Below, piece after piece: positions 21 to 13,975 of a DNA stretch of 64,000 bases. The DNA comes from Sedimenticola sp. GTDB lineage: Bacteria; Pseudomonadota; Gammaproteobacteria; Chromatiales; Chromatiaceae. The translations under genes were made by a program, and so were the position numbers. The notes beneath the pieces were generated by a model that was not told the DNA's origin, ran no database searches, and saw only the letters and a list, made by a program, of their open reading frames with translations. The DNA is taken from NCBI GenBank assembly GCA_002869585.1, contig PKUO01000002.1, positions 190,556 to 254,555 on the forward strand, read 5' to 3'. Positions within the stretch are counted from its first letter, which is position 1. Every line of letters begins with the position of its first letter.

Positions 21-2714
21 TTAGTTTTTACCGCCTTTCCCCTTCTCGTTTCCTTTTGGTGCATTGCTGTTTCTCTTGCCTTTCCAGATGATCTCGTCCT
101 CTGTGTAACCCAGAACGGCATAGTTTGGAGCATATTTTACGATAGGTTCAAGGACTGGCATCCAGGAGCCCCCATTACTGGATAGCTGGTCGCTGCTGAG
201 CCCGACCTCTGTGAGAACCTCTTCTGTTTGTGCGGGTACATATCCTGTCACCCTCGGGTCCTTGGGGCTGAACCAGTTGATGATAATCTCCTTGCTGCTG
301 GTTTTTACCAGGTCTGCATTGCCTTCGATGTCGATTATCTGTGGCAACGCAACGACCTCTTCGTTTTCGGTCAGCAATCCAAGATCGACCAGTTGATGCA
401 TGTTGTAATAGCGCCATTGGTATTTAGGGAATTCCAACACACCCATATCACCCATTTCCAGAGGCACTTTTTCAGTAACTGGGATAGGCTGGGTCATAAC
501 CCCATTACTGCCATGACAGCTGATGCATCCATTGTTGCCGGCCCCGAGCGCCTCCTCTTTAGGACGAACGCCATGCCCACCCAGGGTGACACCATTGGAG
601 AAGGCCGGGTAGTTTTCGACGGCAGCAAGGTATGCGGGTACAGCTTCCGGTGGTAGTTGTGCCGCCTGCATCTGCATGAACATCTTCATCAGGCTGCCGT
701 CAGGCAGTTTCATGGTGACCAGATCGGAAGGCTGTCCAAAGAATGGGTACCACTGATAGTCGGCCGGCAGTCCCATCGGGCCATTGAATCCCATGAACTT
801 CATCAGGCCGATATTGGACGCTTCAAGCAGATCAAAGTGGAAAGGCTTGCCTGTATCCAGAATGCCGTTGGCATCGGCGTCCAGTTCGACCAGATTGCTG
901 CTGATCATGTAGTGCTCATAGCCATAGCTCGCCTTGTCGAAGTTGATCATGTTAGGGAAGATCTGCATCATCGCCATCGCCTGTCTGTCAGGATCGGGCG
1001 ACATGAAGTCCATGAGGGTGATGTTTCGTACCTCTTCAGGCGTCAGGTCGGACATGTCCATGGCGTAGAACACTTCGGCATTTCCCATGCCGGTGTCGCT
1101 GTCCTGGTTTGCATAGAACCGATACATTGAGTGTGCGTTGTAAGGCGCGCCCGCTGCATTGGTTGTGTAGACCTCGTCGAAGAATCTGGCGTCAAACACC
1201 ATGCCGTTCGCCATGGGTTTGAATGGTGTGATCATGGCGCCGGGTGAGCCTCTGACTGACAGTGATTGCGCCAGGAAGGAGACGCCACCGTTATACCAGA
1301 CCAGCGCGGGTAGAGCCTGATAGGCCGTATAGTCGGCTGCGATATCCGCTGCGTCTTCTGCACGCATGTGATCTGCGGTGATCAGCTTGGTATCCTTGCC
1401 TTCAGCATTCCGGCCAAAGGAGATGTGTGCTCCGTCACCGTAGAGCGAGTAGGTGATTCCGCCGCTGTAGGGGATGTGGCAGGTTTCACAGGCGATGCTC
1501 TCCAGATGCCGCTGATCATGGACTGACCCTTTTTTACCTGCGGCCTTCTGTTTACCTTTGTCTGACCCGGTGACGGCCTGCTGTATCTCATCCAGCCTGT
1601 GGCAGGTGGTACACATGATGTTGGTCGGGTCATCCGGATCTGGTACGACGCCGGGAGGCGGCGGTGGATAATCGGCCGCTGCCAGATCACCGCCTACATT
1701 GTGGCCCCTGACAAACTTGTGGTCTGAGGCTGTGTGGCAGACGGTGCAGCGGTTATGGCTACCCGTGAATGGCTCGATATCGGCAGAGGCGTGAACATCG
1801 TAGCCCTCTTCGAACAGTGTTGCCCGTTTATAGCCGGTACGTGCATGTTCATGGCACCGCAGGCAGGTTTCGGTCGTGGTTGGCCCGATCGAGAGCACTG
1901 CTTCCGGGCTGCGATCCTGGGCAATGGTCGGCCAGGGTGTGTCAGGCATGCTGTCGCCATCGGTATCCATCATCATCGGCATATCGAGAACGCCGTCGCC
2001 ATCCAGATCTATCTGGGCATCGGGGATACCGTCCTGATCGAAATCGCCGTTGTCATGGGCTGCTCTGGCATAACCCAGGGGCGAGGGTGATGCGCCATCC
2101 TCGGCGGCGTGCTGCGATACCTGCAGAAAATCCCCGCTGGGCACGGATTTGTAGGTTTCGGCGTGGCAGATCAGGCAGTCGATGCCGGATTCGACGATAT
2201 GCTGCGCTTGCTGTGCCGGTTCAGGCAGTCCCATCTGCTGAAACATGCTGGCAAATGCCCCTTCCATCACCGGCGGATAACGTCCGGTATGACATTTTCC
2301 ACACTCGCCTAGATTGACATCACTGGTGTAGTTGATCAGTCCGGAGGTGCCGGGCAGACCGCAGGCACGGTCAAGCATGCCGTGGGCGCCGCCACCCGGG
2401 AACATCACCCGGTCGGTGCGCGCGGCGAGGGTGTAGTGGACAGAGTTTTTTACTTCCCCGACCTCGGAGGCATGGCACTTGCTGCACAGCGCACCTGCCA
2501 GATCGCGTTTTACATCAGCTTCCGGGATGCGTAGTCCCTTGATCTGATAAGACTGTTTTTTAGCGTTGTAGTGGAAGTTGTGATAATTGCTGTTCCCTGC
2601 TTTGTCGGCCTTGGCGCTGAATGCAGGCCCGGATATAAGCAAACTTCCCAGTGTGATGGCTACAGTGATTAAGTGTTTCTTACTGAAAAATGTAAGTGGA
2701 TTTCGCGCTTGCAT
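21..2714 (-). CDS. Secreted octaheme c-type cytochrome
   Basis: This is an 897-residue exported multihaem cytochrome. The N-terminus is a Sec signal peptide (basic start, hydrophobic residues about 15-30, likely cleavage after AFSA). Eight CxxCH haem motifs are visible near residues 77, 138, 180, 284, 323, 368, 409 and 730. The first seven lie in the N-terminal half. The eighth follows a Met-rich stretch of about 315 residues. Between haems 3 and 4 (about 224-260) are three Asp-rich DxDxDG-type repeats like calcium-binding thrombospondin type 3 repeats, and a related motif lies near 611. No C-terminal membrane anchor is seen; the end is Gly/Lys-rich. A GGGGAG ribosome site precedes the ATG. 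The spacing of the haems and the ITPFKPM segment recall octaheme tetrathionate-reductase-like cytochromes, but the protein is almost twice as long, so electron transfer or sulfur/nitrogen oxyanion reduction is inference. It is a single gene, with no maturation or quinol-oxidase partner beside it. Confidence 0.85.
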   Translation of the reverse strand: MQARNPLTFFSKKHLITVAITLGSLLISGPAFSAKADKAGNSNYHNFHYNAKKQSYQIKGLRIPEADVKRDLAGALCSKCHASEVGEVKNSVHYTLAARTDRVMFPGGGAHGMLDRACGLPGTSGLINYTSDVNLGECGKCHTGRYPPVMEGAFASMFQQMGLPEPAQQAQHIVESGIDCLICHAETYKSVPSGDFLQVSQHAAEDGASPSPLGYARAAHDNGDFDQDGIPDAQIDLDGDGVLDMPMMMDTDGDSMPDTPWPTIAQDRSPEAVLSIGPTTTETCLRCHEHARTGYKRATLFEEGYDVHASADIEPFTGSHNRCTVCHTASDHKFVRGHNVGGDLAAADYPPPPPGVVPDPDDPTNIMCTTCHRLDEIQQAVTGSDKGKQKAAGKKGSVHDQRHLESIACETCHIPYSGGITYSLYGDGAHISFGRNAEGKDTKLITADHMRAEDAADIAADYTAYQALPALVWYNGGVSFLAQSLSVRGSPGAMITPFKPMANGMVFDARFFDEVYTTNAAGAPYNAHSMYRFYANQDSDTGMGNAEVFYAMDMSDLTPEEVRNITLMDFMSPDPDRQAMAMMQIFPNMINFDKASYGYEHYMISSNLVELDADANGILDTGKPFHFDLLEASNIGLMKFMGFNGPMGLPADYQWYPFFGQPSDLVTMKLPDGSLMKMFMQMQAAQLPPEAVPAYLAAVENYPAFSNGVTLGGHGVRPKEEALGAGNNGCISCHGSNGVMTQPIPVTEKVPLEMGDMGVLEFPKYQWRYYNMHQLVDLGLLTENEEVVALPQIIDIEGNADLVKTSSKEIIINWFSPKDPRVTGYVPAQTEEVLTEVGLSSDQLSSNGGSWMPVLEPIVKYAPNYAVLGYTEDEIIWKGKRNSNAPKGNEKGKGGKN

Positions 2715-5602: not shown

Positions 5603-5684
5603 GTTCAACCATGAAGGCACAGTTGTACACGGCTTTCTGTTAACGCAAAGTTCATAATCAAGAAATGAATTATTGGAGATTATC

Positions 5685-6014
5685 ATGAAAAAAATGATTA
5701 AAGCTGCTGCTATTGCTGCAATGATTGCTGCTTCTGGTTCTGCCTCCGCATGGTGGGGTTGGGGTCCTTGGAATGGAAACGGCCTGGGTGATGGCTGGGG
5801 CGACGGTTCTGGCGATTTCAACATGAGCTTCAGTGGCCGTGGTTCTGGTTACGGTTCTGGCTATGGCCGTGGCTATGGTTATGGCAACCCTTACTATGGC
5901 GGCTACGGCTATCCTTACTATGGCGCTCCTTATGGCTATGGCGCACCTTACGGCGCTCCTTATGCGCCTTACGCACCAGTGGCCCCTCAGGCGCCTGCTG
6001 CTGAAGCCAAGTAA
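5685..6014 (+). CDS. Sulfur-globule-type secreted Gly/Tyr-rich protein
   Basis: This is a 109-residue exported structural protein. A short signal peptide (MKK, hydrophobic Ala/Ile core, SASA cleavage site) is followed by a Trp/Gly/Asn start (WWGWGPW) and a [15 protein letters not shown] segment. After that come tandem YG-, GYG- and APYG-type repeats to the end. This matches the SgpC/CV3-like sulfur globule proteins that coat intracytoplasmic or periplasmic sulfur globules in purple and colourless sulfur bacteria. The start was placed at the ATG preceded by TTGGAG; an in-frame TTG upstream would disrupt the signal peptide. A related gene follows 107 bases downstream, probably in the same transcript. 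The low-complexity sequence makes homology by composition risky, so the function is inferred. Confidence 0.75.
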
Positions 6015-6121
6015 GAATACACCTGAATCCTTACAGTCAGGGGAAGGCGTAGAGCACAAGGATGTGCAGGATTCTGAATCAGATACGGGCCTGATGGCCT
6101 GACAGTAAAATGGGTTCAATT

Positions 6122-6709
6122 ATGAAAAAGATGATCAAACTAACTGCGGTTGCAGCACTCGTCGCTACCTCTATGTCAGCGAACGCGTGGTGGGATAATG
6201 GAAACGGTTTTGGTAATGGTTTTGGTGACGGCTGGGCCGACGGTTCATTCAGCATGAACTTCAGTGCTCGCAGCAATTTTGCCGGTCGCGGATACGGTTA
6301 CGGACATCCTGCGTATGGCTATGGCTACGCCCCCTATGGTGCGCCGGTTGCCCCTCTGACTGAAGAGCAGGTAAAGAGCATGCAGGAACAGCAGCAGGCA
6401 TTTGCCGAGCAGCAGAAGGCTTTCGCTGAACAACAGGCGAAGGCTATCCAGGAAGCTGTAGAGGCACAACGCAAGTTTGCCGAACAGTTCTCTGCCGACC
6501 ATGCAGCACCTTTCACTCCAGTGGCTCATACTTTCGAAAGACCGGTACGTGCCGATATGGATGCCCGTCGTGATGAGATGCGTCAGCAGATGCAGACCCG
6601 TCGTGACGAAATGATGAAGCAGGTTGAAGAGCAGCGCAAAATTGCCGAAGAACAGCATGCCGCTGTTCGCAAGGCGATGGAAGAGCGCCGCGCGATGCGC
6701 GATATCTGA
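6122..6709 (+). CDS. Sulfur-globule-like protein with coiled-coil extension
   Basis: The 195-residue product opens with the same signal peptide and WWDNGNGFGNGFGDGW-type motif as the preceding gene, then a short [11 protein letters not shown]-rich part. From about residue 80 it changes completely to a charged Gln/Glu/Lys/Arg-rich helical region predicted to form a coiled coil. This has repeated QQQAFAEQQKAFAEQQ-like units and, later, two RRDEM repeats. The N-terminal half supports targeting to or association with the sulfur globule; the coiled coil suggests oligomerisation or a link to another component. An in-frame ATG at 6110 is possible; 6122 was chosen because it gives a standard signal peptide. 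It is followed by a strong terminator. Confidence 0.7.
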   Translation: MKKMIKLTAVAALVATSMSANAWWDNGNGFGNGFGDGWADGSFSMNFSARSNFAGRGYGYGHPAYGYGYAPYGAPVAPLTEEQVKSMQEQQQAFAEQQKAFAEQQAKAIQEAVEAQRKFAEQFSADHAAPFTPVAHTFERPVRADMDARRDEMRQQMQTRRDEMMKQVEEQRKIAEEQHAAVRKAMEERRAMRDI

Positions 6710-13055: not shown

Positions 13056-13832
13056 ATGCAACTGATATATCGGGAATATGGTCACTATCAGGAGCAGCAT
13101 TCGACCCTGGTCTTTCTGCATGGACTACTCGGTTCATCAGCCAACTGGCACGGGGTAGCCCGGGCCCTCTCCAGCCATTTTCATATCCTGGTTCCCGACT
13201 TGCGTAATCATGGCCAGTCACCTCACAGCGAGGATATCTCGTATTCCGCCATGGCCAGGGATCTGGCCGGTTTTCTGGATGACCAGGGGTTGGAATCGGC
13301 GACGTTGATCGGGCATAGCATGGGCGGCAAGGTCGCCATGTGGCTTGCCCTGACACAGCCGGAACTGGTGGAGCGGCTGGTCGTGGTGGATATTGCCCCG
13401 GTATCTTACCCGAACCGCTTCGGGGGTATATTCGATGCCCTGCAATCGGTTGATCTCCCCAGGGTCAAACATCGCAGGCATGCGGATCAGATGCTCGCTG
13501 ACCGGCTGACGGATGGGGAACTGCGCCAGTATCTGCTACAGAACCTGATGCTCTCCCACGGCCAGTGGTCATGGCGCATGAACCTGCAGGTGCTGGCGGG
13601 GGAGATGGAGCAGATCATCGGTTTCCCAGATCTGGCGGATACTGCGCCCTACCTCGGTGCGACCCTGTTTATCTACGGCGGTAACTCCAATTACATCACC
13701 GCGGAATACGAAAGCCGGATACATGATCTCTTCCCTTATGCCCGCTTGCGCAGCATAGCCGGGGCAGGGCACTGGGTGTATGCCGAGCAGCCCAAGCTGT
13801 TTCAAGCTGCCTTAACCGGTTTTCTGGGCTGA
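13056..13832 (+). CDS. YbfF-like alpha/beta-fold hydrolase
   Basis: This is a 258-residue cytoplasmic serine esterase-like enzyme. The alpha/beta hydrolase signatures are FLHGLLGSSANW (oxyanion region, about 20-31), PDLRNHGQS (about 47), the nucleophile elbow GHSMGG (Ser near 89) and the C-terminal catalytic His in GAGHWVYAE. The PDLRNHGQSPH and VVDIAPVSY segments are characteristic of the YbfF/acyl-CoA esterase branch. It starts about 50 bases after lpdA and may be cotranscribed. The natural substrate is unknown. Confidence 0.85.
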   Translation: MQLIYREYGHYQEQHSTLVFLHGLLGSSANWHGVARALSSHFHILVPDLRNHGQSPHSEDISYSAMARDLAGFLDDQGLESATLIGHSMGGKVAMWLALTQPELVERLVVVDIAPVSYPNRFGGIFDALQSVDLPRVKHRRHADQMLADRLTDGELRQYLLQNLMLSHGQWSWRMNLQVLAGEMEQIIGFPDLADTAPYLGATLFIYGGNSNYITAEYESRIHDLFPYARLRSIAGAGHWVYAEQPKLFQAALTGFLG

Positions 13833-13975
13833 ATCGACGCTTCAGTCGTCTCTCCGGATCGGCATAAACCTTGAGCTGTTTCCATTAGTTAACCTGCGGG
13901 TATTCTCTTGCATGGGTAATCACTGTTAGTCTTACACTATTCAAACTGACCCCTGTAGCAAAACGGACAATGCTG

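Follow-up and report, generated by a model that had tools for sequence, protein, structure and literature searches.

A gene on the minus strand at 21..2714 of the window (the whole stretch of 64,000 nucleotides analysed) encodes an octahaem cytochrome of 897 aa with an ATG start, placed by alignment and profile comparison in a clade of the octahaem tetrathionate reductase (OTR) superfamily, here the 'Q clade'. The protein is probably an exported terminal oxidoreductase of the OTR type, located in the envelope, that catalyses the reduction of sulfur or nitrogen oxyanions. A periplasmic or membrane partner would feed electrons into the haem chain, which would carry them to haem 2; there Lys296 would act as a displaceable sixth ligand, with Cys118 in the substrate pocket. 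The substrate reduced there would be a soluble sulfur oxyanion (tetrathionate or polythionate type) or a nitrogen oxyanion (nitrite, hydroxylamine). Three features specific to the clade, its Ca-type loops, enlarged haem 7-8 domain and C-terminal extension, most likely serve to stiffen the protein or to dock it in the envelope.

Gene and haem motifs

All eight CxxCH motifs counted in the earlier note are present, whereas 5,000 shuffles of the 897-aa protein give at most one each. Placed by motif and alignment, and on the minus strand like every feature of the gene described below, they are haem 1 CSKCH (residues 77-81; 2472..2486), haem 2 CGKCH (138-142; 2289..2303), haem 3 CLICH (180-184; 2163..2177), haem 4 CLRCH (284-288; 1851..1865), haem 5 CTVCH (323-327; 1734..1748), haem 6 CTTCH (368-372; 1599..1613), haem 7 CETCH (409-413; 1476..1490) and haem 8 CISCH (730-734; 513..527). 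The gene has a GC content of 55.1% and the window one of 57.3%, with no strong compositional sign of foreign origin. AlphaFold gives a pLDDT of 33 for the mature chain (six sequences) and of 50 for the C-terminal extension, too low for the models to be used.

Placement in the OTR superfamily

A search of family models, as proposed in the earlier note, finds NCBIfam TIGR04315 (the OTR family) as the best family match for the window protein and the three orthologues scanned (E 3e-10 to 4e-14), but with scores of 39.6 bits for the window protein and 46.6-52.4 bits for the orthologues, far under the curated cut-off of 375 bits. The model does not name the clade, and automatic annotation would probably yield just 'multihaem cytochrome'. 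PDB sequence searches with the window protein or its alignment do not recover the OTR structure 1SP3, and the link to it is made via intermediate families: hhalign of the eight-member clade gives a probability of 99.3% against OTR including 1SP3 (E 2e-20, 316 columns) and of 99.94% (E 1e-36) against a group of ∼740-aa proteins. Across 30 sequences all eight haem motifs align in the OTR order. In the tree of 30 sequences the clade, the 740-aa group, canonical OTR and a group with 9-10 haems are each split off at 99-100% support, the stem of the clade measuring 3.06 changes per site; with midpoint rooting, the 740-aa group is nearest to the clade (100/99). Judged by these comparisons, the clade belongs to the superfamily in the broad sense, as a remote relative of OTR that had not been filed before. 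Because its TIGR04315 score is so low and its stem so long, its substrate could have changed from that of OTR. The largest homologue, L046 (G507), has a C-terminal domain that by eye resembles the one at the N-terminus of L011 and L012, relatives with nine haems.

The predicted catalytic haem

The OTR numbering comes from aligning 1SP3 with a canonical OTR by phmmer, which puts the Cys at 64 and the Lys at 153; this reportedly agrees with the 2004 paper on the OTR structure, in which Cys64 is said to lie near the active haem. The signature GxK[RH][GA] after haem 4, which includes Lys296 (1827..1829; OTR Lys153), is found in 30 of the 30 sequences, and the Cys aligned with OTR Cys64, Cys118 in the window protein (2361..2363), is kept in 29. 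Seventeen Cys are invariant within the clade: 16 of these are haem-binding, and Cys118 is the sole invariant non-haem Cys. OTR His 38, 171, 190, 226 and 400 align with the invariant H93, H308, H332, H403 and H714, the last of them (573..575) a predicted distal ligand. For two of the seven His presumed to be distal ligands in OTR (one next to Lys153, the other in 'APH' near 218) no counterpart aligns, and six invariant non-motif His are to spare in the clade.

The earlier note had suggested looking for a Lys-ligated active-site haem, and at the level of aligned residues its signature is present in Lys296. By alignment with 1SP3, haem 2 is predicted to be the catalytic haem with Lys296 as its sixth ligand; in OTR this haem is the catalytic one and has a Lys ligand (PMC11024163). 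Catalysis is favoured for the clade because it keeps haem 2, the Lys and the Cys alike, whereas MmcA, a relative that acts as an electron conduit, has lost both the haem 2 motif and the Lys (PMC11024163).

Additions to the core and the cell envelope

The three DxDxDG repeats between haems 3 and 4 and the further one near residue 611 described in the earlier note are indeed seen, at 224, 236, 250 and 612. The first three form tandem Ca-type loops, DFDQDGIPD, DLDGDGVLD and DTDGDSMPD (224-258; 1941..2045), and the fourth is DADANGILD (612-620; 855..881). Four such DxDxDGxxD-type loops compare with at most two in 5,000 shuffles. At the level of the pattern the tandem repeats are thrombospondin type-3-like and are putative Ca repeats; a Pfam scan of the window protein gives no Ca-repeat match. 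The loops (224-258, 612) keep their position in eight sequences, with ligand changes or degeneration in L036 and L037, and the aligned loop segment is missing in the 740-aa group and OTR. No paper turned up in a literature search that paired multihaem cytochromes with thrombospondin type 3 repeats. The C-terminal extension (735-897; 24..512), absent from OTR, is 45-51% identical among orthologues.

At the N-terminus, approximately residues 1-34 (2613..2714) form an apparent export signal without a lipobox Cys, read by eye and by comparing homologue N-termini. Lipobox-like signals are seen by eye in L030-L034, and none in the window protein, L036 or L037, so the clade is probably in part lipid-anchored in the envelope and in part soluble. 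The lipoprotein-like signals of these five orthologues are one reason to consider that the cytochrome is instead an outer-membrane or cell-surface conduit for extracellular electron transfer, its catalysis vestigial as in MmcA. The precedent of MmcA itself points the same way (PMC11024163), as do a Pfam MtrC/MtrF domain match of the window protein above cut-off and, in Cocleimonas, a divergent five-haem neighbour that resembles ExtKL (NF040886, E 2e-11, below cut-off). Against this, 8/8 members keep haem 2 with the Lys and Cys of the active site, the window protein lacks a lipobox, and no outer-membrane porin partner was recognised on reading the ORFs directly beside the gene; a conduit is the strongest alternative to a catalytic reductase, and still an unlikely one.

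Distribution of the clade

Seven full-length homologues of 820-1,120 aa make up the rest of the clade. Five (L030-L034) come from a scan of 84,980 species genomes and are 55-64% identical to the window protein (the five measured): L030 belongs to a Thiotrichaceae MAG, L031 and L032 to Cocleimonas, and L033 and L034 to Planctomycetota MAGs. A profile search adds two members from the host's own family, L036 (G466) and L037 (G507), yet the tree places the window protein, weakly (80/78), nearer to Thiotrichaceae than to these two. The earlier note would have taken a close family of the same length with an assigned function as refuting its reading; a family of that length exists, but an assigned function was found for none of its members.

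Among 369 genomes of the class, searched at E<=1e-40, only the host gives a match, no homologue is found in the genus-mate G001 (94% complete), and plasmids, phages and viral contigs give no matches. Because its occurrence is so patchy (Thiotrichaceae and Cocleimonas, Planctomycetota, the host's family), horizontal transfer of the gene is suggested. A more elaborate reading is an OTR-type enzyme stiffened by Ca and anchored in the envelope or at the surface, whose catalytic Lys-haem would be coupled with electron exchange outside the cell (it might, for instance, reduce an extracellular or insoluble sulfur acceptor) and whose gene would pass horizontally between Planctomycetota and sulfur bacteria; taken as a whole, it is quite improbable.

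Surroundings and host

Upstream of the octahaem gene and on its strand is an RNase T-like exonuclease gene (named by eye); past the 3' end of the octahaem gene, outside the window, there is a Crp/Fnr-type regulator. Such regulators are near the gene in 3/8 genomes (the host, L030 and L045), in differing orientation. The host and L030 also share, within ∼10 kb, a DUF2202 protein and an OmpR-type response regulator with a sensor kinase, and choice-of-anchor F proteins are encoded near the gene in L030 and L031. A catalytic gene cluster was not found beside the octahaem gene, and an explanation by gene cluster is not established, given the differing orientation of the regulators and the few other neighbours that are shared. 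The shared neighbours are hints, and they form no defined system. A site resembling that of FNR lies upstream (2957-2970, one mismatch) but was discarded as evidence, the window holding four such sites against 2.0 expected.

Several other observations concern this neighbourhood. The DUF2202 (ferritin-like) genes occur near the octahaem gene in two lineages (L009:8765-9433; L030:5101-5766 and 13215-13928). The host's sensor kinase gene, outside the window (L009:9550-10854, minus strand), has an in-frame stop beyond which the remaining kinase is open, and its homologue in L030 is intact. Beside the response regulator, three small exported proteins are encoded in a row (L009:11778-12973), one of them very Gly-rich; the one scanned gives no Pfam match. 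Within the window, 5673-6709 encodes two adjacent small secreted proteins, Gly/Tyr/Trp- or Gln/Glu-rich, with similar N-termini.

The host genome contains dsrA and two canonical OTRs, which makes sulfur chemistry plausible. In the second of these OTRs, L048 (G000:C76:92479-93849), the haem 2 motif reads CAQCN (codon AAC) with the active-site Lys kept, whereas the closely related L020 reads CAQCH; the difference may be genuine or an error in the sequence. The presence of dsrA, homologues in sulfur-oxidising lineages such as Cocleimonas and the reversibility common among haem enzymes would also suit an enzyme that runs oxidatively, passing electrons from thiosulfate or another reduced sulfur compound to the respiratory chain. 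However, the known OTR activities are reductive and dsrA alone does not fix the direction, so that an oxidative role is improbable.

The haem 7-8 segment

From haem 7 to haem 8 the window protein has 316 residues, which hold 23 of its 40 Met (7.3% against 3.0% elsewhere; hypergeometric p = 0.003). The earlier note had described a Met-rich insert of about 315 residues: the length and the enrichment hold, but the whole stretch is not an insert, as 1SP3 has 174 residues here (5.2% Met) with the same landmarks. In 1SP3 these are WxNG at offset 53, PFK at 91 and a His before haem 8 at ∼162; in the window protein WYNG (473-476; 1287..1298) is at offset 59, the probable PFK (497-499; 1218..1226, assigned by spacing) at 83 and HG at ∼300. 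The net excess over OTR is ∼140 residues, most simply located after PFK, the greater part of it falling in the Met-containing residues ∼513-700 (615..1178, boundaries approximate). An alternative, global alignment pairs the OTR PFK with ∼587 (586-588), which would split the excess around 587 and leave its size the same.

The Met content is 5.3-7.3% across the clade, with eight invariant Met (501, 505, 530, 580, 583, 647, 668, 676), and 5-7% in the 257-259 residues of the 740-aa group, and because 1SP3 and the 740-aa group are so similar in the Met content of this segment the enrichment is not peculiar to the window protein. Copper binding by Met was dropped as the favoured reading on the same comparison, and the earlier note's suggestion that the Met-rich part binds copper or offers axial ligands found no support; the conserved candidate distal His are numerous enough to make extra Met ligands unnecessary. 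A metal-handling protein, with copper on the Met-rich segment, Ca or other metals on the acidic loops and the haems secondary, could draw on the enrichment and the invariant Met, but the shared Met content and the lack of any copper gene recognised by eye beside the gene make it the most remote of the readings.

Comparison with known systems

The window protein shares with HAO and octahaem nitrite reductase the eight haems and a setting of nitrogen and sulfur chemistry; membership of those families was rejected, as all eight motifs are CxxCH with no CxxCK, and neither an HAO nor an ONR model matches. MmcA of Methanosarcina belongs to the OTR superfamily (PMC11024163) and, in contrast with the clade, has seven haems, without the haem 2 motif and the active-site Lys.

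The ∼740-aa group, from the host's own family (loci L016-L018, L021, L022, L024, L027-L029), is one for which no name was found. It has the long Met-containing haem 7-8 segment, the GAKR motif and the FLA and NHG landmarks in common with the clade, but has an N-terminal membrane anchor and neither Ca-type loops nor the C-terminal extension. At L054:6171-10125 (G023) an octahaem protein of this group is encoded in a tight, operon-like row alongside a seven-haem protein and a membrane protein that from its sequence is probably a cytochrome b, which suggests a quinone-linked complex.

The physiological role of OTR is unsettled and has been described as cryptic (PMC11024163); a deeply separated clade with the Lys-haem and the Cys offers a second, independent test of the catalytic features, and its additions (Ca-type loops, a bigger haem 7-8 domain, a frequent lipid anchor) offer a test of enzyme moves to the outer envelope. 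With OTR itself (Shewanella oneidensis SO4144, PDB 1SP3, TIGR04315) the window protein shares the eight CxxCH in order, the active-site Lys and Cys, five aligned His, and the WxNG and haem 8 landmarks. It differs in being twice as long, and the clade differs in its score far under the family cut-off and in the lipoprotein-like signal of five orthologues; the earlier note's view of an octahaem protein with blocks beyond those of the ∼450-550 aa enzymes is borne out by the loops, the ∼140 extra haem 7-8 residues and the C-terminal extension.
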